This document shows positions 30,769-50,321 of a stretch of 64,000 nucleotides of DNA, piece by piece (the stretch's first letter is position 1; each line of letters opens with the position of its first letter). This DNA comes from Candidatus Omnitrophota bacterium (GTDB taxonomy: Bacteria > Omnitrophota > Omnitrophia > Omnitrophales > JACROU01). A program made the position numbers and the translations under genes. Below the pieces are notes generated by a model. It was not told the DNA's origin. It searched no databases and worked only from the letters and a program-made list of their open reading frames with translations. Location: the NCBI GenBank assembly GCA_029261035.1, contig JAJDCD010000023.1:491126-555125 (forward strand), in the 5' to 3' direction.

Positions 30769-32325
30769 GTGACTCCAAGATATCTTATTTTTAGTTTAAT
30801 TCTCATTGTTGCTTTTACAGGATGCTCTTCTCTGAAGAAGAAGGAAAAACAATCTTCAGAAGCAGAGATTGTTATGGATGTATTGAAAGAGCAAAGTGAG
30901 GAGATAAAAAGGTCCTCGCCTAAAGTTTATTTGAAAGGTGTAGAGAATTTAGAAATTCGTTTTGATGAAAATAGTACAGACAATGTTCTCGACCTTACTT
31001 GCCAAGGAGCTTCGCTTTCTGCATTGATCCATCATTTGTTAAAAGAATCTGGAATGTCTTATTTCTTTAAAGATACGGGAATATATGGGACAGTTACAGC
31101 AAATTTCAAAAATAAATCTTTAATTGAAGCTGCTAATTTAATTTTAGGGCCTAGTGGTTTTTTTGCTAGTTTAGACAAAGACGTTTTGATTATAGAGAAG
31201 AAAGCTTCTCTGCCACCATCTCCTCAAGAAGGAAAGGCGACAGTAAAAAGTAAAAGCAAAGATAGTAGTGACGCTGATAGTGACTCGGATTCTGTGACAA
31301 CTTCCACAAAGAAATCTTTTTCTATTGAAGTTCCTTTAGACTATATCGATACAAAAACGGCTTTTAAAGTTTTGGATGGCTTGTATCCAAAAGATTTAGT
31401 TTCTGGAAATAGGTCGGTTAATTTTGGAGTTGCTCAAAGTAATAGCAGTGTTTTTCTTCAAGGTCCTGAGCAGTTAGTTCGTGAAGCAGCTACGAGTATA
31501 AAACAAGCAGATCAGCGCTTGCCGCATGTATTTATTGAAGCATTGGTCATAGAATATAATGTGGATGCAGCGTTGGAGTTTGGTATCGATATTACGAATG
31601 GTCAGGGTAATCGGTATTCTAATGTTCGAGCGGATATTGGTTCGCTTGCGGCAGATGCTTTTTCTTTTATGTATACCGCTGGAGCACAGGCAAGAAATGA
31701 TTTTACGACTCAATTTGTAGCGAGTATTGATTTGCTTCTTAAAAACGAATTAGCTCGTATTATTTCCCGACCTTATATTTCAACGCTCAGTGGGCAAGAA
31801 TCTAAGATTGATATTACTAATGATAGGTACATAGTTGTAGATACAGCTTCAGGTGGAGCTACAGTAACAACTCCTAAGGCAGTCTCTAGTGGAGTTATTT
31901 TTTCAGTAACTCCAACGGTATTAAATTCTGAACTCATTCAAATGAATATATCTGTTGAAGATTCTCAGTTTGTTGCAGCTGCTGGAAATATTGCGGTTGA
32001 GGTTGATAAAAATCAAGCGTCGAATATTATGCAGGTTCGAAATGGAGAACCCATTGTTATTGGAGGATTGTTGTCTAACAAGAAAACAGATGTTAAGAAT
32101 GGACTTCCGATTATAAAAGACATTCCTTTTATTGGAGATATTTTTGCAGAAACAAGACAAGAGATACAAAAAGTAGAAGTTTTGATCTATATCGTACCTT
32201 ATATTTGGGAACCTAGTCTTGTTAAACCTTTAAGAGCGGAAGATGTTTTGATGCCAGGTAAAGCAATCGAAGAACAAAACTTTTTAGAAAAAAGATTGGC
32301 AAAAACTAATTTGCGAACAGCATAA
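30769..32325 (+). CDS. Secretin-family protein (GspD/PilQ-like)
   Basis: 518-aa outer-membrane secretin. It begins with a lipoprotein signal (LIVAFTGC, Cys about residue 19). Residues about 60-145 form an N0/STN-like domain (VLDLTCQGASLSALIHHLLKESG). A Ser/Asp-rich linker (about 160-180) is followed by an N1/N3-like domain (FKVLDGLYP). The secretin core spans about 245-495: VFIEALVIEYN, ISRPYISTLSGQESKIDI, VIFSVTPTVL, VRNGEPIVIGGLLSNKK and IPFIGDIFAETRQE, ending VLIYIVPYI. The start is GTG with AAGGGA upstream. It would form a type II secretion or pilus pore; no other gene of such a machine is in the window. Confidence 0.85.
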   Translation: MTPRYLIFSLILIVAFTGCSSLKKKEKQSSEAEIVMDVLKEQSEEIKRSSPKVYLKGVENLEIRFDENSTDNVLDLTCQGASLSALIHHLLKESGMSYFFKDTGIYGTVTANFKNKSLIEAANLILGPSGFFASLDKDVLIIEKKASLPPSPQEGKATVKSKSKDSSDADSDSDSVTTSTKKSFSIEVPLDYIDTKTAFKVLDGLYPKDLVSGNRSVNFGVAQSNSSVFLQGPEQLVREAATSIKQADQRLPHVFIEALVIEYNVDAALEFGIDITNGQGNRYSNVRADIGSLAADAFSFMYTAGAQARNDFTTQFVASIDLLLKNELARIISRPYISTLSGQESKIDITNDRYIVVDTASGGATVTTPKAVSSGVIFSVTPTVLNSELIQMNISVEDSQFVAAAGNIAVEVDKNQASNIMQVRNGEPIVIGGLLSNKKTDVKNGLPIIKDIPFIGDIFAETRQEIQKVEVLIYIVPYIWEPSLVKPLRAEDVLMPGKAIEEQNFLEKRLAKTNLRTA

Positions 32326-35403: not shown

Positions 35404-35988
35404 ATGAAAGCGCAAACCTTACCTATGGATCCAAACTCCCTTAAGGAATCAGTTGATCTTCTTCAAAAAATAGCCCAAGGGGATCAGAATGCTTTTTCCC
35501 AGTTTTATGATAAGCATTCCGCTCTTGCTTACCGTCTAGCGGTCTACACCATGAATTCCCATAACGAAGCCGAAGAAGTGGTTCAAGAAGTTTTTATGCA
35601 AGTTTGGCGTAAAGCTTCAGAATATTCCTCTAAGAAAGGGAATCCTGAGGCTTGGATTACGATGATGACGCGAAGTAGATCCATCGATAAGTTGAGGAGC
35701 TTACGTAGTACTAATAGGACCAAGGAAGAAGCTCTCTCTCAAGCAGAAGAAAAGCATAAGAGAGATGGGGGAAAAACAGATTCACCTCTTCCTAAAATTG
35801 TTTTGGATAGCGCGCTTTCTCAGTTAAGCGAGAAGCATCGAAAGGCACTAGAGTTATCTTATTTTATGGGGATGACACATGAAGAAATTGCTAAGGAGTT
35901 AGACTCTCCCTTAGGTACGGTAAAGGGTTGGTTAAGAGATGGATTGAGAGAATTGCAAAAAATAATGAAATCAAAGAGGTTGGATTGA
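35404..35988 (+). CDS. ECF-type RNA polymerase sigma factor (SigK/RskA-associated type)
   Basis: 194-aa sigma factor. Region 2: AFSQFYDKHSALAYRLAVYTM, NEAEEVVQEVFMQVWRKA and PEAWITMMTRSRSIDKLRS. Region 4: LSQLSEKHRKALELSYFMGMTHEEIAKEL, then GTVKGWLRDGLRELQ. The YFxGxTHEEIA and GTVK form is that of the ECF group that pairs with RskA-like anti-sigma factors, different from the RpoE-like one at 18135. The anti-sigma gene starts one base after its stop. Downstream come a secreted repeat protein and the giant surface protein, which are plausible targets (inference). Confidence 0.9.
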   Translation: MKAQTLPMDPNSLKESVDLLQKIAQGDQNAFSQFYDKHSALAYRLAVYTMNSHNEAEEVVQEVFMQVWRKASEYSSKKGNPEAWITMMTRSRSIDKLRSLRSTNRTKEEALSQAEEKHKRDGGKTDSPLPKIVLDSALSQLSEKHRKALELSYFMGMTHEEIAKELDSPLGTVKGWLRDGLRELQKIMKSKRLD

Positions 35989-35989
35989 T

Positions 35990-36679
35990 ATGAGTGACCA
36001 TCAAAATTGGATAGAATTAGCAGACCTCTATGCTTTAAAAAGCTTAAGAGGAGAAGAGCTAGATCGGTTTGAAACCCATCTGGATAAGGGGTGTTCTGCG
36101 TGTGAAGCTCATCTGTCTGAAGTTTATAACTCTCTTACATTAATGCCAGAATCGCTTTCGAGTGTTGTTCCTCCTCTAAGTTTAAAAACTCAAATTATGG
36201 AACAAGTTGCTTTAGAACCTAGATTAGAAGGGTCTTCTCCATCAGAAGCGGCGCCTTCATTTTCAATGACTCCCGTTTATTGGGCTGTAGGAGTTGCTGT
36301 AATAACAGCAGCCCTTGTTACTGCTGTTTATTTAGGGAATAAACCTAAAGAAGAAGTTCCAGTAAAAAAAGGTCAACTTGTCGAAAAGGCTATTGTTGTA
36401 AAAGAAGAGCCTCTTAATTTTCCAGACCAAACGATTGATGCTTTTAACCGAACTCCGTTAATTGATCCTCAAATGCCATTACAGCCTCAGATTAGAATAG
36501 AAGAGCCGCCGGTTGTTGTAAAAGATGAGGAAGAGGATATCTCTAATGCTTTTGAAGAGGAGGAAGAACTAGGTAAATTAACCTCGTTTTTTAATGAAAA
36601 AACCCCTGAGATCTCCTCAGAAGTAACGCATGTTACCCCTGTAAAATCAGACTATTCCGACCAAAAATTCGAAGAATAA
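35990..36679 (+). CDS. RskA-like anti-sigma factor
   Basis: 229-aa membrane anti-sigma factor. The N-terminus has the ELADLYALKSLRGEELDRFETHL block and a HxxxxCxxC-type zinc pattern (THLDKGCSACEAHL, about residues 29-42). A membrane helix lies at about 96-114 (VYWAVGVAVITAALVTAVYL). The C-terminal periplasmic part is long, Pro- and Glu-rich and probably unstructured; RskA proteins are degraded there by regulated proteolysis. It should hold the upstream sigma factor at the membrane. Confidence 0.85.
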   Translation: MSDHQNWIELADLYALKSLRGEELDRFETHLDKGCSACEAHLSEVYNSLTLMPESLSSVVPPLSLKTQIMEQVALEPRLEGSSPSEAAPSFSMTPVYWAVGVAVITAALVTAVYLGNKPKEEVPVKKGQLVEKAIVVKEEPLNFPDQTIDAFNRTPLIDPQMPLQPQIRIEEPPVVVKDEEEDISNAFEEEEELGKLTSFFNEKTPEISSEVTHVTPVKSDYSDQKFEE

Positions 36680-36714
36680 GGCGTTTGTCACTTGCTTACC
36701 CCCGTTATTTATGG

Positions 36715-36743
36715 CATAACTTATTAATATATAATAACTTATG
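36715..36743. promoter_or_regulatory. Palindrome with TATAAT upstream of secreted repeat gene
   Basis: CATAACTTATTA pairs with TAATAACTTATG around a short AT loop (one mismatch per arm). It contains TATAAT (36730-36735) about 100 bp before the gene at 36837. It could be an operator over a promoter. Confidence 0.4.
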
Positions 36744-36836
36744 AGTTATTACACTTTTTTCCATCTAAAAGCACCCTGGCTTCCGTAGTCTTTTCAGAAG
36801 TCAAATAGGACTGTTCTTTTTGAAAGGAGAACTCAA

Positions 36837-37409
36837 ATGAATAACCAAAATAAAAAAATAAATAAATTGTTTCTTGTTGTAGGAGTTGCTGTACTTTCAC
36901 TTTGTTTCCCCAATGCGGATGTTTTAGCGAATGAAGTAAAAGACATGGAGGTAAGTCCTCAAGTCATTATGGAACGTGCTTTAGAAAATATTCCAAATGA
37001 TGTGCCTCATGCTGGAAGTTATAATCCAGAAACAGATAGCTTTACAATTTCTCAAGGAAATAAAGATGGAAGTCGTACGGTAACTGAGTTGGATCGTAAT
37101 GGAAAAGAAGTGAAGAAGACTAAGGTTCCTAAAACGCAAAATGACTTTGCTGAAAGTTATGATCCTAAAACAGGTCGTCGTATTCGAGTCGAAGGTAATC
37201 CAGATGGAACACGAACCGTTACAGAAACAGATAAAGACGGTAAAAAAATTCGTGAAGAAAAAATTGATCCAAAAGACAATAGACCTTCTGCTTCCTCAAC
37301 CGATCCAAGTACTGGTATTACAACCAGTGTTCAAGGTAACGGAGACGGAACCCGAACGATCACACAAACTGATGCAAGCGGTAATGTTATCAGCTCTCAA
37401 ACTTTATAA
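36837..37409 (+). CDS. Secreted repeat protein (paralogue of the 6088-6792 gene)
   Basis: 190-aa protein with signal peptide (LFLVVGVAVLSLCF, cleavage near ADVLANE). The mature part opens with VIMERALENIPND, then carries at least three repeats of about 40 residues with the pattern S-Y/T-(N/D)-P-x-T, N-(P/K/G)-D-G-(S/T)-R-T-(V/I)-T and D-(R/K/A)-(N/D/S)-G-(K/N). The last unit ends DASGNVISSQTL. The start block and repeats match the secreted protein at 6088-6792, though this copy is richer in Lys and less acidic. The pattern recalls short beta-hairpin repeats of surface proteins. Ribosome site AAAGGAG. Function unknown. Confidence 0.75.
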   Translation: MNNQNKKINKLFLVVGVAVLSLCFPNADVLANEVKDMEVSPQVIMERALENIPNDVPHAGSYNPETDSFTISQGNKDGSRTVTELDRNGKEVKKTKVPKTQNDFAESYDPKTGRRIRVEGNPDGTRTVTETDKDGKKIREEKIDPKDNRPSASSTDPSTGITTSVQGNGDGTRTITQTDASGNVISSQTL

Positions 37410-37640: not shown

Positions 37641-40600
37641 ATGAGATTATTTTCTCGATTTAAAAAGGGACTCAGTACCGGTCTGTTATTTTTCTTTATA
37701 GCGAGCCAGGGTGTTTTTCTGCCAGATGGCTTTGCTCTTCCTATGCTGCTTCAGCCTATTCAGGTTTCTCGTGGAATCATAGAAACAAGACATGAGGGCT
37801 CTCAAGGAGAAGTTGTTATTCTTGAAGATGCTCATGGGTATATTGATGCGCAGCGATCCATACGATCTATTTTGGATCAATTAGAAAACAAATATCAATT
37901 TAAACACTTCCTCATTGAAGGCGCCACAGACCCTCTTGAGAGTCTACTCATCGAAAGCTATCCCGACAGCGAGAAAAAGAATCAGTATTTAACTTTTGAG
38001 CTTAACAGAGGGTCTCTTAACGGTGCTGAAGTAGCAGCGTTAAATAAACAACAAGGAACTATTTACTCAGGATTAGAGGATAAGCAATATTACGAGGATA
38101 ATTTAAAAGCTTATTTGGAGGTAAAGAAAAGTAAACTTGTACAAGCAGCAAAAGATCATTTAGAAACAGAGAAGCTTTTATTAAAAGAAGAAAAAAGGCA
38201 GGTTTATTCTCAGCAATTATTTGATTTAGAACAGAATGAATCTCTTTATCAAGATAGAAAAAATTTGTTTATTTGGCTTATGTATTTAAAGCAGTTTTCT
38301 GAGTTTGGAACTTATAAAGAGTTAAATGCCTTGAAGGTATGGTTTGAAAACCAAAAGAAAATTTCAAAAGATGCACAGTTTTTAATTATTGGATTGGAGA
38401 AACGACTGCAAGATATTGATTTGACCCATGCTGAGAAAATTCAGTGGGGAAGCCTAAAACAAGAATGGAGTAACGAACTTATTAATGAAAGACAGTATGT
38501 GCAAGGGATGAAAGAGATTTTAGGGTCCAATCGACTCACGGAAGAAGAAAAATCATTGATGACCCAACTTCCTCAACTTAACATTCAAATTTTAACGGAT
38601 TTAGAAACACTGGTATCCCGTATCAAAGCTAGATTGGCGAAATCTCCTGAAGAAAAAACATTACTGGAGAAGAGTCATAATTTAAAACTTAAGGAAGCAG
38701 CTCTTAATTTAAAGTTAACTCGTAATCAATGGCAAGAGCTTCAGCAGTTGGGGATAGATTTGCCCCAAGTAATTAATAATTATTATCTCCTCGCAATCCA
38801 AAGAGAAAAGAATTTCTTAAAAGAAATCACAGAACAATTAAAGCAAGGACAAAAGAAAGTAGTTGTTCATGTAGGAGGTTTTCACACCGAAGGACTAATC
38901 AATCCTTTATTGAAACAAAACCTCACACTCAGAGTTATTAAACCCAGGTTTGAACTTCAAGCTAAAAGCGAAGCCTACGACAAGAGAATAGATCAGGCAG
39001 CATTTTATTTTTCTACACTTAAAGAACCATCCAGATTAGGGACTCCTTTACTAAGAACACAAATCGAAGCAAGTTTTCTTGCTCGCATGTTAGAAAAGGT
39101 TCCGCCACAAGAATGGGGATTCTCTTTAATTCAAAGGTCTTCTCAAGGTGGGGTAGTTAACTCTTCAGAATTGTTAGCATTTGTAGCTGAGATTATTAAT
39201 TGGTCGAAAGTTGAAGAAATGCAAAGAGAACTTGGAGAGTTTCAGAAAGAAAATTTGAAAGAGGAAGGTCTGGTAGAAGCGAGGTCGCTAGGAGCAAATG
39301 AAGCTTATAGAAGTTCTAACTTGCCATGGAAGGAAAAAGAGTACGCGTTCTCTGGATTGCCTCAGAGCTTGGGGTTGAGTTGGGGTGATTTAGAAAACAG
39401 TTATCCAACGTTAGTTAAAATTTTAGTGAGAAAAAGAAATGCAATGGAAGCATTTATTTCTTATGCAGCAAATGTAAAAGGCCAGCGTAATTTAGGGAGA
39501 ATAGAAGATTTGTTTGAAGCTATAGCTCAGCTTAGAGATATTGAATATGTAGGAGTGACTTTTGAGGCACTTAAAGATTTAGCAGAGGTAGAGAGTTCAG
39601 GAGCCGGTTACAGTGATGTTGTCTTAGATGAAGAGTTATTGAAAAGAATTGTCGAAGTTAATGGAATGTATGCTTCGGAAGCTTTGGGTGCTCTCAGGGT
39701 AATGGGCGAATCGATTCAGGGTGGATGGGGGAGTGAAGCCGTTTTTGATAAGGAATTATGGTATAAAATTATCGAAGTTAACGAAGGGTATGTGGAGAAA
39801 GCTTCAGATTATGCTCAATCTTTAAAAAATAAAGTACAGGCTGGAAGCCTAAGTAAAACTAAATACAAAGAGCTTTTTTTAGAATTCCTCAATCATGGCA
39901 AAGAGAATATAGCGAGAACATTCAGGGTTCTTCCACTCCTAAGAGGAGCAGATTTTGATGTTGAATTTTTGAAAGAAATAGTAGCACACATGAAAGAAAA
40001 AACAGTGGATGTATTCGGGAAAATAATAGTTTTAGGGGAAGGAGTTCCAGAAGGAGAACTTAGAAAAGAAGAAATTCTAGAGATAGTTAGAAGAGCAGAG
40101 GACATAGGCGTAGATCAGGTTTTGTTGCAGCTAGATAAATTGAAGGAAGAATGGATAAGCGAGACATTAGATGATGCTCAACCTTTGGAAAGTTCTGAAG
40201 AGGAGGAAAAGTGGTTAGATCTCGTTAAAGTTGAAGCGCAATCGCTTGGAGCAGAGGAAGTGTATGAGGAATTCTTTTTGGAAGAAAAAGTGGGACTTAG
40301 TTGGGAGGAGTTAGAAAGTGATTATGAAGATTTGGTAGAAGTTTTAAATGAAGAAGAGATGGCTATGGAAGCCTTTGCTGCTTTTACTGAGAATATGGAG
40401 GATGAAAGGGAATTGGACAAAATAGAGTCTTTGTTTAGCAGTATTTTTCAAAAAAAAAGGGTTATTTCAAGGGCGGCTTTTTCTTCTTTAGAACAATTGT
40501 TTCTTGCAGTAGCGAATGATGAAATTAAGAAAGAGTTGATCGACTTAGAGTTTTTGGAAAGCATCAGTAGTGCGAGTGTTAAATATCCTTATTTAGTTTT

Positions 40601-43568
40601 TGATGGTCTATCACTTTTAGCTAAAAAAATAACCAGTGGTAAAGTGCCTGAAAAGTTATGGGATACAAATTTATTGTTTACAGCAACCATTTCAGGAGAA
40701 TCACAAGTGTCAACAATCATGAATTCCCTTTCTGAAATTGGTGAAGGAGTTATTTCGGGAACGATAGCAGAAGAAGTTCTTAGAGTAGAATTTTTAGTAA
40801 CTTTGATAGAAGCCTATAAGACTCATGCAGCCGTTCTATTGGGTGCTATTAGAAATTTGGGAATCTTGATTCAGAGAGATGCGATTGATAAAGAGATCTT
40901 TAGTGAGTATTTCTTTAGAAAGCTTTCTGGCTATATAGATGATATTTCTATTTCTGATTTTTCCGGCGCTATATATCGGATGATGTTAGAAGGGGGCGGT
41001 AAAGAGCTATTTAATTTAGAATTTTTATTAGAAATTATGGAAATAGCAAAAAAGTCGACAGTAAACATTTATAGAAAAATATGGAAAGTGCGCAACAACA
41101 TTCAGGTCGGAGAACTGAAAAAAAGCCAGATATTAGAAGTTGTAAGAAGGATTGATGATATTGGAGAAGAGAATGTTCTCAGCCAACTAAAAAAACTTAT
41201 TGCGGAGTGGAAAAGAGAGGCGGAAGAAGTCAGTCCTCCTTCAAAAAATACTGAAGAAGAGGAATGGTTAGATCGTGCTGAGGTTGAAGCAAAATCTCTT
41301 GGGGCTGAGAACTGGCATGATGTTTTATTAAATTTAAATATAAGTGAGAAAGAGTTTCGGGACCTATTCCCCGACTTGTTAGCCGTTGTTGCATCTCACC
41401 CCTATCTCTTAGATATTTTTTTAACAGAGATAAATCAATTTGACCCTCCTTATAAAAACTTTGTTATGAAGTTTTTTGATGGGATGCTAGGAACGATTAT
41501 TTATATTTCAAACTTTTTAGGAGTTTTGTTTGGTATAGAGCGTATGAAGAAAGAAAGTAAGTTTGTCGAAGTGTTTAAAAAGAACATGAACTTAAAGATT
41601 TTAAAAACTATTTCTCGAACAAGGAAAATCAATGAAAAAGATATTAGAGAAATAGAAATAATTTTTCAAATCATCGTTTCATTAGAAAAAGCTCTTAGAT
41701 TAGATCTAAGAGATCATGCCAGAAATACTTTTGATTCTATCAAGGAAATAAACATAGGTATAACGGAAGGAGTTATAAGTGAAGAAGTGCTGGATATAGA
41801 ATCCTTAAAGAGAATCGTTCTGACATCAGGAGATAAGAGTTTATTAACATTTGCCATGGGTGCTCTGAGAGCATTAGCAGCAGGAGTGAGGGCAGGGAAA
41901 ATAAGCGAAGAATTATTAAGAGTAGAATTTTTTGAAACCATCGCTAAGACAGCAGGTTCTGAAGATATGTGGAACGTTTTTCGCTCTCTTGTTTCGTTAG
42001 CAAGTGGAGTTACAGAAGGAAAGATAAATGAAGAGATGATGAATGTGGATTTATTAAAATTAATTTCGAAAGGCAGTCAGTCTCAGACATCATCCCTTTT
42101 TATCCTTCTCGGAGGATTGGGCTCACAAATCGAGTTCGATAAAAGAAGTAAAGAATTGTTGAATGTAGAGTTGCTAAAAGGAATTGCTAAAGTGAGTGGT
42201 TCAAATATAGTGCTTGCTTATAAAAGTCTTGAAAGTTTAGTAAGAGAATTTAGGGAAGGGTTGGTTGGTCCGGAAATGTTTAATATGGAATTATTTGAAA
42301 TTATCTCGAAGTCTAGTGGGATTTGGACAGAAAGTGCTTTTAATTCTTTTCATAATTTAGTGCTCAAGGGTACACGTTCTGGAGTTGTAAAATATGAAGT
42401 ATTAAAAATTCTTGCTGAGTCCAGCGGGAAAGAGATGTGGCAAGCCTTTGATGCTTTGGCAGAATTAGGAGCGGCAGTGACATCTGGACAAGTAAATGAA
42501 GAAGTTTTGGATGTTGAGTTGTTAAAAATAGTTGCTAAGAAATGGAGAGTTTATCGAGCTTTGAAAGGATTAGGCAAAGACGTTTTAGATATTGAAGTGT
42601 TGAAAAGAATTGCTGAGATAGATGGTGGAACTATCGTTGGTGACTCTGCAGCGTCAGGCTTTCATAAACTGAGAGATTTAATAGTATGGGAAAAAGAGGG
42701 TAGAGTGTCCAAAGAAGTTTTGGATGTCGAGTTACTAAAAAGAATTATCAAAGCAAGTGGCCCTTCGACATGGGATGCTCTTCCTGCATTAGGGTTCTTA
42801 GGAGCTGGAGTGAAGACAGGAAAGATTAAAAGAGAATTGTTAAGTGCAGAACTTTTTGAAGCCATGTCTAAGTCGAGTGGATCTGAAATGTGGGCTCCTC
42901 TGCGGACGCTCAAAGAATTAGCTGCAGGAGTAATTGCAGGCAATGTAGAGCAGGAAATTTTGGACGTGGAGTTCTTCGAAAGAATTTCTACATTAAGCGG
43001 TGAAGGGCTAACTCAAACATTTAAAGTGCTAAGTGAAATAGGGGCCGATGTAAGGCTTGGACAAGCGAATAGAGAATCCTTGAATGTGAAGTTCTTGATT
43101 ACAGTGGCTGAGCAAATGAAAGGAAAAACAGCAGAAGCATTTGCAGTAATAAAAGGCTTGGCAAAAACAACTCCAGATGGCCCCTTTAGAAAAAACGAGA
43201 TCTTAGATGTTGTAAAAAAAACGGATCAAATAGGGATAGATGAAGTGTTGAACCAGTTAGACCAATTGAAAGATGTTTGGGAGAGAAGCTCTGAAGAAGA
43301 AAGAGCTCCTCCTGAGAAAGAGCAAGAAGATGAGTGGTTAGATCGTGCTGAGGTTGAAGCAAAATCTCTTGGAGCTAAGGATTGGGGCAAAGTATGGGTG
43401 GAGTTAAATCTTGGGAAAAAAGAATTGCATAATTTATACCCGGAGTTATTTTTAACTTTAAATTCTAGGCCTTTTGCCATTAAAGTTTTTCTGGAAATGA
43501 TGAATCGAGATAGTGTTCAGACTAAAAATAAAATTTCAAAGATAGTTGGAAACTGGTTTGTAATATGA
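37641..43568 (+). CDS. Giant secreted alpha-repeat protein, part 1 (ends at in-frame TGA)
   Basis: 1975 codons. A signal peptide (about residues 11-33) is followed by a domain with EDAHGYIDAQRSIRSIL (about 58), LIEGA (about 92), SLNGAEVAAL, GLEDKQYYEDNLKAY (about 145) and VVVHVGGFHTEGL (about 410), a TraB/ChaN-like hydrolase plan I associate with Omnitrophota. The rest consists of helical repeats of about 38 residues (E-E-V-L-D-V-E-L-L-K-x-I-A plus A-x-x-x-L-x-x-L-G-x-G-V). They are grouped into supermodules that open with W-L-D-x-x-E-V-E-A-K-S-L-G-A (near nt 39275, 40231, 41281, 43351) and close with R-K-x-E-I-L-x-I-V-R-R. It ends inside a supermodule header at TGA 43566. The next CDS continues in the same frame. 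Likely surface or envelope function; mechanism unknown. Confidence 0.85.
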   Translation: MRLFSRFKKGLSTGLLFFFIASQGVFLPDGFALPMLLQPIQVSRGIIETRHEGSQGEVVILEDAHGYIDAQRSIRSILDQLENKYQFKHFLIEGATDPLESLLIESYPDSEKKNQYLTFELNRGSLNGAEVAALNKQQGTIYSGLEDKQYYEDNLKAYLEVKKSKLVQAAKDHLETEKLLLKEEKRQVYSQQLFDLEQNESLYQDRKNLFIWLMYLKQFSEFGTYKELNALKVWFENQKKISKDAQFLIIGLEKRLQDIDLTHAEKIQWGSLKQEWSNELINERQYVQGMKEILGSNRLTEEEKSLMTQLPQLNIQILTDLETLVSRIKARLAKSPEEKTLLEKSHNLKLKEAALNLKLTRNQWQELQQLGIDLPQVINNYYLLAIQREKNFLKEITEQLKQGQKKVVVHVGGFHTEGLINPLLKQNLTLRVIKPRFELQAKSEAYDKRIDQAAFYFSTLKEPSRLGTPLLRTQIEASFLARMLEKVPPQEWGFSLIQRSSQGGVVNSSELLAFVAEIINWSKVEEMQRELGEFQKENLKEEGLVEARSLGANEAYRSSNLPWKEKEYAFSGLPQSLGLSWGDLENSYPTLVKILVRKRNAMEAFISYAANVKGQRNLGRIEDLFEAIAQLRDIEYVGVTFEALKDLAEVESSGAGYSDVVLDEELLKRIVEVNGMYASEALGALRVMGESIQGGWGSEAVFDKELWYKIIEVNEGYVEKASDYAQSLKNKVQAGSLSKTKYKELFLEFLNHGKENIARTFRVLPLLRGADFDVEFLKEIVAHMKEKTVDVFGKIIVLGEGVPEGELRKEEILEIVRRAEDIGVDQVLLQLDKLKEEWISETLDDAQPLESSEEEEKWLDLVKVEAQSLGAEEVYEEFFLEEKVGLSWEELESDYEDLVEVLNEEEMAMEAFAAFTENMEDERELDKIESLFSSIFQKKRVISRAAFSSLEQLFLAVANDEIKKELIDLEFLESISSASVKYPYLVFDGLSLLAKKITSGKVPEKLWDTNLLFTATISGESQVSTIMNSLSEIGEGVISGTIAEEVLRVEFLVTLIEAYKTHAAVLLGAIRNLGILIQRDAIDKEIFSEYFFRKLSGYIDDISISDFSGAIYRMMLEGGGKELFNLEFLLEIMEIAKKSTVNIYRKIWKVRNNIQVGELKKSQILEVVRRIDDIGEENVLSQLKKLIAEWKREAEEVSPPSKNTEEEEWLDRAEVEAKSLGAENWHDVLLNLNISEKEFRDLFPDLLAVVASHPYLLDIFLTEINQFDPPYKNFVMKFFDGMLGTIIYISNFLGVLFGIERMKKESKFVEVFKKNMNLKILKTISRTRKINEKDIREIEIIFQIIVSLEKALRLDLRDHARNTFDSIKEINIGITEGVISEEVLDIESLKRIVLTSGDKSLLTFAMGALRALAAGVRAGKISEELLRVEFFETIAKTAGSEDMWNVFRSLVSLASGVTEGKINEEMMNVDLLKLISKGSQSQTSSLFILLGGLGSQIEFDKRSKELLNVELLKGIAKVSGSNIVLAYKSLESLVREFREGLVGPEMFNMELFEIISKSSGIWTESAFNSFHNLVLKGTRSGVVKYEVLKILAESSGKEMWQAFDALAELGAAVTSGQVNEEVLDVELLKIVAKKWRVYRALKGLGKDVLDIEVLKRIAEIDGGTIVGDSAASGFHKLRDLIVWEKEGRVSKEVLDVELLKRIIKASGPSTWDALPALGFLGAGVKTGKIKRELLSAELFEAMSKSSGSEMWAPLRTLKELAAGVIAGNVEQEILDVEFFERISTLSGEGLTQTFKVLSEIGADVRLGQANRESLNVKFLITVAEQMKGKTAEAFAVIKGLAKTTPDGPFRKNEILDVVKKTDQIGIDEVLNQLDQLKDVWERSSEEERAPPEKEQEDEWLDRAEVEAKSLGAKDWGKVWVELNLGKKELHNLYPELFLTLNSRPFAIKVFLEMMNRDSVQTKNKISKIVGNWFVI
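41265..41302 (+). repeat. 38-nt direct repeat copy 1 inside giant gene
   Basis: Identical over 38 nt to 43335-43372. It encodes the header motif from the Trp of WLDRAEVEAKSLG. Exact identity at nucleotide level between otherwise diverged modules suggests recent duplication or gene conversion. Confidence 0.85.
43335..43372 (+). repeat. 38-nt direct repeat copy 2 inside giant gene
   Basis: Second copy of the 38-nt identical segment. It lies about 190 bp before the in-frame TGA at 43566. Confidence 0.85.
43566..43568 (+). other. In-frame TGA between the two halves of the giant gene
   Basis: 37641 and 43626 are in the same reading frame, and only this one stop separates them. Read through, the frame continues NLNEEGEKRIREVESIF, which matches the header region of other supermodules (for example EKDIREIEIIF and DERELDKIESLF). 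Ordinary genes here (such as egtB) end in TGA, so TGA is a real stop in this genome. Confidence 0.9.
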
Positions 43569-43625
43569 AATTTAAATGAAGAAGGTGAAAAGAGAATTAG
43601 AGAGGTAGAATCTATATTTAAAAAC

Positions 43626-46600
43626 ATGATTCGTATAGTCTCTCCGCAGCAAAGGGAAGTTGATATAGAAAATTCATTTCGGATTTTATGGTTTTTAGCG
43701 AAGGGTGTAAGAGAAGGAAGCATTAGTAGGGAAGTGTTAGATGTAGAGGTGTTAAAAGGAATTGCAAAGTCAAATGGCGTCTGGATCGAGACATCCTTTG
43801 AGGCTCTAAGAAAGTTAGGAGGTGGAGTGAAGGAGGGAAGTGTAAGAGAGGAAGTGATGAATTTAGAGTTATTAAAGAAAGTAGTTCAATTAGGTGGAAG
43901 AGAGACATATGTTCATCTGTTTTCTCTCACAGATCTAGGGATTGGGGTACAGCGTGAATTAGTTTCAGAAGAAGTGTTGGATTTAGACCTATTAATTAAG
44001 ATTGTTGAGGCAAGTGGAGAGAAGACGGGAGAAGCCATTAATGCTCTCAGAATATTAGGAGAAGCGGTGAAAGTTGGAAAGGTGAGCGATTCTGTTTTGA
44101 GTGGGGAATACTTAAAAAAAATTGTTGATATAAGCGGAGGGGAGGTGAAAAGCATTTTTGATGTTCTTAGAAAATTAGGAGAAGCAGTGAACGCCGGTAA
44201 ATTAAAAGAAGAGGTATTAAAAATAGAACTTTTTGAAATGCTCGCTAAGCAGAGCGGGAGTCAATCAAAATATGCTTTTCGTAGGCTTAAAGAGTTGGTG
44301 GAGAGGCTGAGTGAGGAAGTGTTGGGCGAAGAAGTTTTGGATGTAGAGCTCCTTGAGATAATGGCGAAGTCAGGAGGGGAAGACTTAGGTGATGCATTCT
44401 GGCAACTGAGGCTCTTGGCGGAAGATAAGGGAATTTTTACAGAAAAAATATTAAATGTGGAGTTTTTAAAGCGCATTGCTGAGCCAAGTGGAGCAGATGT
44501 AGGAAAGGTTTTTGAGCTTTTAAGAAGATTAGGAGAGCAAGTGAGCTCTGGAAGTGTGCCAAAAGAACTATTAGATGTGGAATTCTTCACAGAAGTAGTT
44601 GAGCAAATGAATGAGAAAACATATGAAGTATTAAAAAAGATTCAAGGTCTTGGAGAGGCTTTGTCAGTAGGAGTATTCAGAAAAGAAGAAGTGTTAGAAA
44701 TAGTCAGAAGAACAGACCAAATAGGAATAGATCAAACTTTGAAGTTATTAGATCAACTTAAGGAATCATGGGCAAGAGATTTTGAAGTAGCAAAACAGCC
44801 GCTTGATGAAATAGAAGAAGATTGGTTGGATCGAACTGAGATGAATGCTCAATCTCTTGGGGTTAGAAAAATTTATGACAAATCTGACTTAGGAAAGCGT
44901 TTGACAATGTCATGGGAAGACTTTCAGCGGGAATATGCGGCCTTGATTTTAGCTCTTAAGGCTGAAGCTTTTCATCTGCGGAATCTTTTTTCTCTTTATG
45001 CAGCCCATGTCAATGATAGAGAATCACTGAAAAGTTTGGAGCGTATTGTAGAAAAGATTAAGGATAAGGATGAGTTTTTTCAAGGGCCAATCCATTTGTT
45101 TGTTTCTAAACTGGAAAAGGCGGTTAAGGATAAAAAGATAAATGGTTCATTTATACAACCTCCATTTCTTGAGAGAATTTTAAATGCTGTTACCGATGCT
45201 TCAAATATTGCATTTCAAGATTTAACGGGATTGGCTTCGGGAGTTAGTGATGGAAAAATGAATCCTGAAGTATTGGATGTTGACCTATTAATTAAAATTG
45301 CTGTATTGAATGGAGAAGAAGCGTTTGCCGCTTACAATGCACTGGGTGAAGTTGGAAAGGGAATCCAGTTGGGGAAAATTAAAGCCAGTATTTTAAAAAC
45401 AGATTTTTTTGAAAAGCTTTCAAAAATTAAATTACCTGGAGGAACATCTATTTATTTTACTCTTTCTAAAATAGCCAGAGGAATTTCAAAAGATAAATTC
45501 AGTAATGAGTTAATCAGTGTGGACTTATTTGAAGAAATCTTTAAGCTGACGGGCGATAAAAACCATGAGGCTTTTAATAATCTAGGGACTTATTTGGATA
45601 ATGTGATAGAGATCCCTCAAAGCTCTGTCACGCTTGAGCTATTGATGACTGTTGTTGAAGGGAGCGGTGAAGGAGTGACTAACGCTTTTAAGGATTTGGA
45701 AAAAATAAGTTTTTCTGTTAGACAAAATCAATTGCCTCTGGAAGTGATTTCCCCAGAATTTTTAATTGAGGTTTTCCAGCTATCTAAAGAAAGGTCAGGA
45801 GATATTTTTGATCAACTGCTCACTTTTTCTCAATATACACAGTTTTCATTCGATCCCGAAGAGTATTTGAGCGTTCTAAGAAAAGCAGAAGATTTGGGTA
45901 TGGATGCTGTATTGAAACAGTTGGATTATTTGATTCAAGAATGGATTGACCAAGAAGAAGAGGATGACGTACCTGAGGTTCCGGGAGAAGATGGGGAATG
46001 GCTAAGGGAAGAGGTGGATGCAAGGTCTTTGGGTGCAAAGTATCGTTATATTGCGGAAGGTCTGTCTGAAAAATTAAATTTGAGTTGGGAAGAGTTTGAG
46101 TCTTTGTATCCTCGGTGGACTGATCTTTTAAATGATAACACCTTTGCTTTTGATGCTTTTGGGAGTTATATGCATCTAAAAGAAATGGTGTACCCTTTAG
46201 GAGATGTTCAGGAAGTTTTTCTTAAAATTGAAGAGATGGCTTCCGAAGAATCTGAAGATGCATTTAGAGAATTAAGTAATTTGTTTAAAAGCAGAGGGAA
46301 TAGGAGTATCAATAAAAAGCTGCTGACGCCCGAGCTTTTAATGGAAATTACTGAAATAGCGGGTAAAGATGTTGTAGCTGCTTTCAAGGCAATGGAACAT
46401 ATACAGATGATTATTTGGTATGGACGAAAAATAAAAAGTGAGCATTTTCCTATGGAACTATTTAGAGCCGTTGGACAAAGTTCGGGTGTGAATAAAAGCA
46501 GAGATTTTGGTGTTTTAGGAAACATTGCAAGAAGTTATTTTTGGGATGAAATAGGAAAAGAGATTTTGGATGAAGACCTACTAACTCAATTAGCTGTAAT

Positions 46601-49600
46601 GAGCCGTGAAAATATATCCAATGCCTATGGAGTGCTTCTTGTTTTAGCTAGTCGAGTTAAAGTTGGTAAAATTAAAGAAGAGATTTTGGACCTCGAGTTT
46701 TTAGAACAAATAGCTTTTATGATGAAAAAAGATACATACCGAGCTTTGTTGAAACTAGAAAAATTAGGCGCGACTAATATAAAATCTGATTTCGATAAGG
46801 AAGCCATTTTAAATATTGTCCGAAAGGTCGAATACATTGGAGTAAATCCCGTTCTGAAACAATTGGACTATTTAATAGAAGTATGGGCATCAAATGAAGC
46901 GGAAGATAAATTTATTCCAAATGCTGATCAAGAGGAGTGGCTACGGGAAGAGGTGAGAGCGAAGTCTTTGGGGCTGCAAGAACAATACGAAAAGGCAGGA
47001 TTGCCAGAAAAGTTAGGGGTGAGTTGGAATGAGTTATGGAGGTATGGATATTTATTTAAAACATTGAATAGAACAGAAGAAGCTATGGATGCGTTTATTG
47101 CTTATGTAGAATTCATGGGAGATAAGATTCAATTAGATGAGGTTGAAAGTTTGTTTTCAACTATTAATATATTCGACCGTCGGTCTGGTAGAAATGGCTT
47201 TTTTGAGGCTTTGACAGAATTAATAGATGGTGTCAATCAAGGGGAAGTTAGCGAAGAAGTTGTGGATTTGAATATTTTTAAAAAGATTGTTGGCTTAAAT
47301 TCCGAGAATTCAAAAAATGCTATCGTGGCTCTTAGAGAGCTTGGTGAAGGCGTGAAAGCTGGAGAAATTGGGGTGGAAGCGTTGGATTTACAGCTTATAA
47401 GAAACATAATAGATTTAAGTGATGAGAATGCAGCGGTTGCATTCAAAGCACTTAAAGAACTAGGGGCTGGAGTAAATAATGGGACAATAAGGTCAGAAGT
47501 ATTGAATATAAGCTTTTTTGAAAGTATTTTTGAGTTAAAAGGAGAGTATTCGAAACCTATTTTATATGCTCTTACAGCGATTGCTGCTGCCGTCAGAAAT
47601 GAAAAAGCAAAAGAAGAATTATTAGAGTTAGTTTTTTTTGAAAAAATTAATGAATTGGCAGAATCTAATCATGCATCTGCTTTTCATGATCTTGGCAATT
47701 TGGTTTTTAAAGTTGTTGAAGAAGAAGCTGTGGATGGGATTTTGGATAAAGATTTACTGGTTTATATCGCTAAATTTAATAAGGAAGGAATGGGAGATGT
47801 TTTCGACGCTTTAGGGGAGTTAGCTGTTGGGGTAAAAGAGGAAAAGGTTCCGGCGAAGTTTTTGGATTTAGATTTTTTGAAAGAATTTATTTCTTCGAGT
47901 GCTTTTGGTTTAAATGGACCATTGCTTTCTCTTATTGATTTAGGTGAGCGGTTAAAGGAAGGGAAGGCTTCGGAAGAGTTTTTTAGTCTGGATTTTATAA
48001 ATCAAGTTGCTAAGGTGAGTGGTATTTATACGGGAGAGGCCATTGTTTTTCTTACTCTTTTGGAAGAAGCTGTTAAAGCTGGAAAGGCAAAAGAAGAAGT
48101 TTTAACATTAGATTTGATTGAAATGGTAATTATTTTTAACGAAAGAAAAGCCAATTTTGTTTTTTACGAACTTTGGGATTTAATTAAAGGTGTAATGGAG
48201 AAAGGTCTTTCTGTAAAACTTTTGGATTTAGAGTTTTTAAAGACAATACTAGAGTTTAGCAAAGGTTCTTCTGAGGGTAGTCTTAAGAGGCTTAAAGAAT
48301 TAGGGGGTGCTGTTAAAGAGGGTGAGGCGCCACAGGAAGTATTAGATTTAGAACTTTTAAAGACAATAGCAAAAAACAGTAAAACAGATACCCCTAGCGC
48401 ACTAATACAGTTAAGGAGTTTAGGGAAAGAGTTAAGAGAAGGTGTTGAGGTAGGCGTGTTAAGTGAAGAATTTTTAGAAGTAGGGTTTTTTAAAAAAGTT
48501 ACAAACATTGCAGAAAAAAATACAAGTAAAGCTTTCTATTTATTTAATAATTTTGGTGAAGCGATAAGATTGAGTGAAGCAAAAGCAGAGTTGTTGGATC
48601 TAGGATTGTTAGAAAAAATTTTAAAGATGAGTGGAGAAAATGCAGGTTCTGTGCTTTCAGCTTTAACAATATTGGTTTCAGGCGTTGCAAGTCGAAAAAT
48701 AAGACATGAGGTTTTGGATCTTAATTTATTGAAAGCTATAGCGAATAAAAGTGGTGTCGGAATGGAAAAAGCTATTAAAGAACTTGGAAAGTTAGGAAAA
48801 GGAATTATTTCAGGTGAGATAGTTCCAAAAGTATTAGATATGGACTTATTAATCCAGATTGTAAAATCAAGCGGTCAAGAGGCTGGGGATGTGTTTAATA
48901 TCCTCAGTGATATGGGCTCTACCCCCAAAAGGGGGGTGAAGCATATAGATGATTTGGATGTAGAGTTATTGAAAAAAATATCAAAGATAAGTGGGGCTAG
49001 AACAAAAGGAGTGTTTGAAGTTTTTAAGGAGTTGAGTTTGGGAGCCAATCTTAATAATGAAGCAAAAGAATTAATAAAAATAAGTTTTTTTGAATTTTTG
49101 GTGTCGCTTCCAGTAGAAAACCCATATCTTTTTATTCATTCCATAAAAACATTAATCAGCTCAGCGTTAAGAGAGAAATCAACAAGAAGGATTTTGGATG
49201 AAAGTTTTTTAATAGAAGTATCCGAGCAAATGAGTGAAAAACCAGCAGAATTCTTTCGTGTGTTAATCGAATTGGGAAAAGTGGCGCAAGAAGGAGGTTT
49301 TCGAAAAAATGAGATATTAGATATAGTAAGGAGAGTGGATGAAATAGGAATAGATAAAGTTTTGAGACAATTAGAACAGTTAGGGGATGTGTGGGAGAAT
49401 GAGATTGGAGGAGTTGTTTCGAATGATGATAGACCGGAAGATGAATGGTTAGATAGACGTGAGATAGATGCGAAGTCTTTGGGAGCTTTGCGACAGGTTC
49501 AGAGTAAAGCGCCAATTGAAACTTTATCTTTTGAATTATTGAAACAGAATTTCAATAATGAGTCAGATTTGAGAGCGTTTTTGGAAATGTATTTTAAGAC

Positions 49601-50321
49601 GCGTATGAGCGATGAGCAAAGTTTGGGTTTTTGGAAGTTGTATCAGTCTATAAAAAGTATTCCGGAAGGATTGCTTAGGGCGATAGAGCTTGTGGGGTTA
49701 GTATTGGAATCAGAAGGTTTGGGTGTGGAAGAAGTAGCTGTAGGTTTAGAAGATGTTTTGATTGCTGAGGAAAATGTGGATTATGTGATGGACTTAACAA
49801 GCTTTATGGAATTAAGAAGAAAGTTACCGGAATTTGTAGATGAGCTTAAAACTCGGGATCAGATTTGGGTTTTGTATGAAGGGGAAGAAAGAGAGGAACG
49901 AACGGAGGTTGCGAAGCTGCAAAGAAGACATTCTGATATTTCGGGTAATACTCAAATCCGGTTTATTCAAAGAGATAAACAACTGAAACATTTAAGGGGT
50001 AGGGGAAGTCGTATCAAGGTCGGTGTAATGCGGGACATCATTTGGAATTCTGTGAAAGAGATTTTGCCAGAGGATTATGTGACGGCCAGTTATTATGAAG
50101 AAGACGGAAAGTTAAAAGAGGGAATGGCTCCATTGGCATTGAAGCTAGTGATCGCTCGCGCGAAAGCGATGGAGGCAGGGTCGGTTGTAAGCCCAGAATG
50201 GATTGTGGAAAATTTAGGAGTGCAAGGAGTTCGATTTGACGGGATGCATATGGTGATTGATTTGGTGCAAGTGCTGCAGAAGTCGATTGATGCGCATCGT
50301 ATGATTGCTCAAGCTGCGTAG
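43626..50321 (+). CDS. Giant secreted alpha-repeat protein, part 2 (continues part 1 frame)
   Basis: 2231 codons from the first in-frame ATG, which has no ribosome site, no signal peptide and lies in the middle of a header domain; the frame is open back to 43569. Four further header motifs occur (near nt 44839, 46011, 46951 and 49461), each with LSWEEL-like text and followed by helical repeats of about 38 residues. The closing motif R-K-N-E-I-L-D-I-V-R-R appears before each header. After the last header, a different C-terminal domain of about 270 residues follows, with VDYVMDLTSFMELRRKLPEFVDEL, IWVLYEGEE and VRFDGMHMVIDLVQVLQ. The stop TAG overlaps the first base of a part-A repeat. Best read as the C-terminal half of one protein of about 4,225 aa. 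Confidence 0.8.
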   Translation: MIRIVSPQQREVDIENSFRILWFLAKGVREGSISREVLDVEVLKGIAKSNGVWIETSFEALRKLGGGVKEGSVREEVMNLELLKKVVQLGGRETYVHLFSLTDLGIGVQRELVSEEVLDLDLLIKIVEASGEKTGEAINALRILGEAVKVGKVSDSVLSGEYLKKIVDISGGEVKSIFDVLRKLGEAVNAGKLKEEVLKIELFEMLAKQSGSQSKYAFRRLKELVERLSEEVLGEEVLDVELLEIMAKSGGEDLGDAFWQLRLLAEDKGIFTEKILNVEFLKRIAEPSGADVGKVFELLRRLGEQVSSGSVPKELLDVEFFTEVVEQMNEKTYEVLKKIQGLGEALSVGVFRKEEVLEIVRRTDQIGIDQTLKLLDQLKESWARDFEVAKQPLDEIEEDWLDRTEMNAQSLGVRKIYDKSDLGKRLTMSWEDFQREYAALILALKAEAFHLRNLFSLYAAHVNDRESLKSLERIVEKIKDKDEFFQGPIHLFVSKLEKAVKDKKINGSFIQPPFLERILNAVTDASNIAFQDLTGLASGVSDGKMNPEVLDVDLLIKIAVLNGEEAFAAYNALGEVGKGIQLGKIKASILKTDFFEKLSKIKLPGGTSIYFTLSKIARGISKDKFSNELISVDLFEEIFKLTGDKNHEAFNNLGTYLDNVIEIPQSSVTLELLMTVVEGSGEGVTNAFKDLEKISFSVRQNQLPLEVISPEFLIEVFQLSKERSGDIFDQLLTFSQYTQFSFDPEEYLSVLRKAEDLGMDAVLKQLDYLIQEWIDQEEEDDVPEVPGEDGEWLREEVDARSLGAKYRYIAEGLSEKLNLSWEEFESLYPRWTDLLNDNTFAFDAFGSYMHLKEMVYPLGDVQEVFLKIEEMASEESEDAFRELSNLFKSRGNRSINKKLLTPELLMEITEIAGKDVVAAFKAMEHIQMIIWYGRKIKSEHFPMELFRAVGQSSGVNKSRDFGVLGNIARSYFWDEIGKEILDEDLLTQLAVMSRENISNAYGVLLVLASRVKVGKIKEEILDLEFLEQIAFMMKKDTYRALLKLEKLGATNIKSDFDKEAILNIVRKVEYIGVNPVLKQLDYLIEVWASNEAEDKFIPNADQEEWLREEVRAKSLGLQEQYEKAGLPEKLGVSWNELWRYGYLFKTLNRTEEAMDAFIAYVEFMGDKIQLDEVESLFSTINIFDRRSGRNGFFEALTELIDGVNQGEVSEEVVDLNIFKKIVGLNSENSKNAIVALRELGEGVKAGEIGVEALDLQLIRNIIDLSDENAAVAFKALKELGAGVNNGTIRSEVLNISFFESIFELKGEYSKPILYALTAIAAAVRNEKAKEELLELVFFEKINELAESNHASAFHDLGNLVFKVVEEEAVDGILDKDLLVYIAKFNKEGMGDVFDALGELAVGVKEEKVPAKFLDLDFLKEFISSSAFGLNGPLLSLIDLGERLKEGKASEEFFSLDFINQVAKVSGIYTGEAIVFLTLLEEAVKAGKAKEEVLTLDLIEMVIIFNERKANFVFYELWDLIKGVMEKGLSVKLLDLEFLKTILEFSKGSSEGSLKRLKELGGAVKEGEAPQEVLDLELLKTIAKNSKTDTPSALIQLRSLGKELREGVEVGVLSEEFLEVGFFKKVTNIAEKNTSKAFYLFNNFGEAIRLSEAKAELLDLGLLEKILKMSGENAGSVLSALTILVSGVASRKIRHEVLDLNLLKAIANKSGVGMEKAIKELGKLGKGIISGEIVPKVLDMDLLIQIVKSSGQEAGDVFNILSDMGSTPKRGVKHIDDLDVELLKKISKISGARTKGVFEVFKELSLGANLNNEAKELIKISFFEFLVSLPVENPYLFIHSIKTLISSALREKSTRRILDESFLIEVSEQMSEKPAEFFRVLIELGKVAQEGGFRKNEILDIVRRVDEIGIDKVLRQLEQLGDVWENEIGGVVSNDDRPEDEWLDRREIDAKSLGALRQVQSKAPIETLSFELLKQNFNNESDLRAFLEMYFKTRMSDEQSLGFWKLYQSIKSIPEGLLRAIELVGLVLESEGLGVEEVAVGLEDVLIAEENVDYVMDLTSFMELRRKLPEFVDELKTRDQIWVLYEGEEREERTEVAKLQRRHSDISGNTQIRFIQRDKQLKHLRGRGSRIKVGVMRDIIWNSVKEILPEDYVTASYYEEDGKLKEGMAPLALKLVIARAKAMEAGSVVSPEWIVENLGVQGVRFDGMHMVIDLVQVLQKSIDAHRMIAQAA

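Follow-up and report, generated by a model that had tools for sequence, protein, structure and literature searches.

The window analysed here is a stretch of 64,000 nucleotides in contig C16 of a Candidatus Omnitrophota assembly (2.70 Mb, 26 contigs, 94.8% complete). From 37641 to 50321 it holds two long ORFs that we argue are the halves of one giant gene. Immediately upstream, at 35404-37409, are a gene for an ECF-type sigma factor and, after it, two small genes; there is a secretin gene at 30769-32325. The features of the giant gene, with the basis for each call, are these.

37641..43565, + strand: first half of the giant gene (1975 aa), with signal peptide, N-terminal domain, modules 1-3 and the start of module 4 (ORF, module map)
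37641..37740, + strand: hydrophobic, signal-peptide-like leader, LLFFFIASQGVFLPDGFAL (hydropathy peak at residue 15)
37776..39020, + strand: N-terminal domain with DAHG, EGA and GGFHT motifs (predicted alpha/beta fold, long helical insert, weak EreC/HopBA1 fold match)
39270..40211, + strand: helical-repeat module 1 (SLG-linker module map)
40212..41264, + strand: helical-repeat module 2 (module map; predicted all-alpha repeat, pLDDT 78)
41265..43334, + strand: helical-repeat module 3, with a hydrophobic 19-residue header-loop insert, GMLGTIIYISNFLGVLFGI (module map, hydropathy)
43335..44822, + strand: helical-repeat module 4, interrupted by the TGA (module map, header profile)
43566..43568, + strand: the sole in-frame TGA (stop scan)
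43569..50321, + strand: second half, 2250 sense codons after the TGA, first ATG at 43626, stop TAG (ORF)
44823..45998, + strand: helical-repeat module 5 (module map)
45999..46937, + strand: helical-repeat module 6 (module map)
46938..49445, + strand: helical-repeat module 7, the longest array (module map)
49446..50318, + strand: linker and C-terminal domain (similarity to the ends of a 5950-aa ORF in genome G001 and a 6467-aa homologue)
50304..50318, + strand: C-terminal IAQAA, a small-residue ending common to other giants (comparison of termini)

Each module consists of a linker (WLDRAEVEAKSLGA-like), a header block, a helical-repeat array and a closing segment. The hydrophobic insert of module 3 is membrane-like and lies at 41481-41537; a similar insert is found in a module of a 5,097-aa homologue.

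The region 37641-43568 is an ORF of 1975 aa and 43626-50321 is an ORF of 2231 aa in the same frame. Together they lie in a frame of 4,226 codons that is closed only once, by the TGA at 43566-43568, and read through it the whole gene is 12.7 kb long. About 232 stops would be expected by chance in that many codons from the base composition of each codon position. The remaining two forward frames have 462 and 389 stops over the same span. No further stop occurs in the 6.7 kb downstream of the TGA. Codon-position GC is 0.48/0.31/0.30 before the TGA and 0.50/0.30/0.30 after it. One can imagine a frameshift in place of the stop, but the other two frames around 43500-43700 are packed with stops, so there is no frameshift at the TGA. 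The ORF and stop scan thus bears out the earlier note on this DNA, which gave the shared frame, the coordinates and the TGA as the sole stop, and the motifs it quoted (EKDIREIEIIF, DERELDKIESLF and EKRIREVESIF) are present. It also placed the stop inside a conserved block. This is right insofar as the TGA lies in the header block, but it falls between two conserved helices, in a loop whose length varies, off the conserved residues. In two other modules this loop is extended by long inserts that contain hydrophobic stretches. The interruption is real in the given sequence, yet ordinary in kind.

A header-block profile was built from 20 other modules, leaving module 4 out. Aligned across the masked stop it scores 65.3 bits, while the separate pieces score 35.0 and 33.1 bits. 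A piece beginning at ATG 43626 scores 22.8 bits. The 19 codons between the TGA and this ATG therefore add about 10 bits, and none of 200 shuffles reached the real score. This gain implies that the 19 codons encode part of the header.

The earlier note proposed a comparison with relatives, and the same genome provides one. Its contig C24 has an uninterrupted ORF of 6,467 aa that matches both ends of the interrupted gene. The N-terminal region is 41% identical over 584 aa, and the C-terminal region is 34% identical over 431 aa; the linker and C-terminal domain are about 38% identical to the end of this ORF. A homologue with both termini is therefore a single uninterrupted ORF. The same-family genome G001 (JACROU010000048.1) is Candidatus Omnitrophota and the N-terminal domain is present in 54 of the 58 relatives, which marks the present genome as an Omnitrophota genome as well. 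In G001 one contig ends within an ORF that has the N-terminal domain, and another contig begins within a 5,950-aa ORF that has the C-terminal domain. Neither piece has an internal stop. The end of the second is about 38% identical to the linker and C-terminal domain of the interrupted gene. Strict synteny was looked for with both the G001 and the C24 homologue and rejected; the neighbouring genes do not match, so these ORFs are relatives and not proven orthologues. The G001 pieces show the gene type rather than a strict orthologue. Much longer open frames with the same N-terminal domain exist, one of 16,199 aa in the present genome (G000:C26 near 66000) and one of 35,113 aa in another (G018:C37 near 184000).

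The ends of these proteins are another line of reasoning. We traced 40 giants with the same N-terminal domain to their ends; 3 of them run off contigs, which leaves 37 visible ends. A terminal alanine is found in 35 of the 37, with a double alanine in 25 and serine-alanine in most of the rest. The two exceptions are G014:C93 (EAKHR) and G001:C74 (AKIL). All 20 of the other giants sampled in the present genome are unbroken and alanine-ended. An AA or SA end is seen in no other gene of the window. The alanine ending is often missing from shorter ORFs that carry the N-terminal domain; of the 5 matched ones whose end is visible, 2 have it. The first half of our gene ends in GNWFVI and the second half ends in IAQAA, so between them the two halves have a single normal start and a single normal end. 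It must be noted that in the giants the alanine ending comes after a helix and that the ends are otherwise hard to align. A quick profile of the other giants' C-termini gave no significant hit to the second half, so the shared ending exceeds what that profile detects as homology. Our claim covers a common ending and not a single C-terminal domain family.

Four independent tests thus support the earlier view of one gene split by a single stop in a conserved block. These are the profile across the stop, the uninterrupted same-genome homologue with both termini, the termini of the giants, and the open frame with its even codon-position composition. There is one gene with one stop, under the standard code and with no further decay. 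We are confident that it is a gene for a giant, probably secreted repeat protein whose one in-frame TGA is either a recent nonsense change or a consensus error, and is not decoded as an amino acid.

Which of these two it is remains close to balanced. Of random single-base changes in the second half, some 4-6% would turn a codon into a stop. Three stops are thus expected there by about 0.8-1.2% neutral divergence, and none is observed. Since there is no further stop past the TGA, the interruption is very young, or the downstream part is still selected, or the stop is absent from the organism. If the interruption is real and neutral its age is under about 1% neutral divergence. A real and recent nonsense change, fixed or polymorphic, would make this a young pseudogene or a truncation allele, and we give this a little under an even chance. 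It fits the lack of a second lesion in 6.7 kb, and the 20 other giants sampled in this genome have no such interruption. The 601 bases around the stop have just short or 68-90% matches elsewhere in the genome, and repeat collapse was rejected at this point; no near-identical copy of the locus covers the TGA, so collapse of repeat copies is not indicated, which also favors a real change. Against it, the TGA is known from the assembly alone.

A consensus or assembly error at 43566-43568 is nearly as probable, and we give the two explanations nearly equal weight. The assembly consists of 26 contigs, and some of these break off within giant genes. A consensus error rate of 1e-4 would produce about 1 false stop over about 243 kb of giant genes, a round figure that takes some 27 giants at 3,000 codons each. 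The lack of any trace of decay past the stop also fits a false stop. However, error rates of 1e-5 or less would give just about 0.1 false stop across all the giants, and no other interruption was met in the giants sampled. As to the assembly in general, contig C3 of this genome also stops inside a giant gene, and one entire 8.3-kb contig (G000:C9:1-8337) is a single open frame of repeat modules. Giant genes break this assembly.

One can also imagine that the UGA is read through, by selenocysteine, a suppressor tRNA or leakiness, so that one gene would make both a short and a long protein. The frame is indeed open to a canonical C-terminus, and TGA is the natural stop of 0 of the 20 other giants sampled in this genome (13 use TAA and 7 use TAG) as against 9 among the 40 remaining genes of the window. 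The decoding machinery speaks otherwise. Known bacterial reassignments of UGA involve a UCA tRNA and the loss of RF2 (PMC8629427). Here RF2 is present (prfB match at 498 bits) and none of 40 tRNAs has a UCA anticodon, though the genome is 94.8% complete, so a UGA-reading tRNA could conceivably have been missed. We reject a UGA-reassigned code (tables 4 or 25) on these two observations and a suppressor tRNA on the second. The case for a selenoprotein is no better: a search of the genome found no match to SelA, no tRNA-Sec scored above the gathering cut-off, and the RNA after the TGA folds no better than shuffles (z-scores of -0.2 to 1.2), with no SECIS-like hairpin and no stable structure. No Rfam family was found in the stop region. 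Neither other modules nor relatives conserve the TGA site. Since RF2 is present, TGA ends other genes, and UCA tRNA, SelA, tRNA-Sec and RNA structure were not found, UGA reassignment is unsupported and we consider readthrough of any kind very improbable. The most specific version is a leaky UGA that yields a short and a long form, of which only the long one has the C-terminal domain with its alanine ending. The ending would then be an unrecognised sorting or anchoring signal, with termination deciding between release and retention, and this is more doubtful still. Of the three causes that the earlier note offered, readthrough has thus been made unlikely by the RF2, tRNA, SelA and RNA folding results, and recent mutation and base-call error both stand.

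It is also highly unlikely that these are two functional genes with the second half translated by itself. There is an ATG 19 codons past the stop, at 43626, and it is the first in-frame start. However, starting there would cut a conserved header helix, and the homologues are single ORFs. The second half lacks a hydrophobic leader, and nothing beyond a 3-nt Shine-Dalgarno match precedes the ATG. The earlier note had pointed to the lack of a leader and a ribosome site and to the 19 codons before an ATG, and these observations hold. The ribosome site is weak evidence, since the accepted start at 37641 also has just a 3-nt match. A separate promoter and start for the second half, which that note saw as telling against a single gene, were looked for; promoter-like sites are at chance level and there is no Shine-Dalgarno sequence.

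The single gene would encode a secreted giant that begins with a signal peptide and an N-terminal domain weakly like EreC, continues through seven helical-repeat modules and closes with an alanine-ended C-terminal domain; the in-frame TGA interrupts it once, in a loop of module 4. If the TGA is real, the product would be truncated to 1975 residues and would have the leader and N-terminal domain without the C-terminal domain. A Pfam search of the giant gene gave nothing significant, and the N-terminal domain has no PDB sequence match and no convincing Pfam match. Its structure model has a pLDDT of 85, and the top Foldseek hits are EreC, two Bacillus cereus relative entries and HopBA1, with E of 0.027 to 0.38 and low TM-scores. 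We take EreC, the Bacillus cereus relative and HopBA1 to be one superfamily (EreA/ChaN/TraB/TIKI-like). The predicted fold may belong with this superfamily, going by its top hits and the conserved His and Glu motifs; the His in DAHG, the Glu in EGA and the His in GGFHT are invariant or nearly so. It differs from EreC in that E is 0.027 or worse, there is no sequence match, and the giant's domain has a long helical insert. The fold matches are weak but coherent for a predicted structure. The repeat module is predicted to be an all-helix tandem repeat and in this is like designed and natural alpha-helical repeats (alpha-solenoids). Its fold search puts mostly designed helical repeat proteins on top, but none has E below 0.001, and Pfam recognises no repeat family.

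Giant ORFs in the Omnitrophota have been described as those longer than 20 kb in Seymour et al. 2023 (PMC10066038). Those giants are from the same phylum and are poorly annotated and secreted-looking with no Pfam domain, as is the interrupted gene. Our gene falls below the 20-kb line given there, at 12.7 kb even as one gene, and is also interrupted by a stop. The paper makes no mention of stop codons, nor, in the portion consulted, of this module type or of the alanine ending. We infer secretion and a role in adhesion or as a surface scaffold, and likewise the fate of the truncated product. The most likely role is that of a secreted, surface-located binding or scaffold protein, in line with the proposals for Omnitrophota giants in PMC10066038.

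The interruption is mainly an annotation matter, and the two ORFs are best annotated as a single interrupted gene. It also means that one of the genome's giant genes may be dead or miscalled. The alanine ending of the giants is a more interesting lead than the stop. A family of secreted Omnitrophota giants with a common N-terminal domain and, nearly always in those sampled, a terminal alanine offers a testable handle on export, processing or anchoring.
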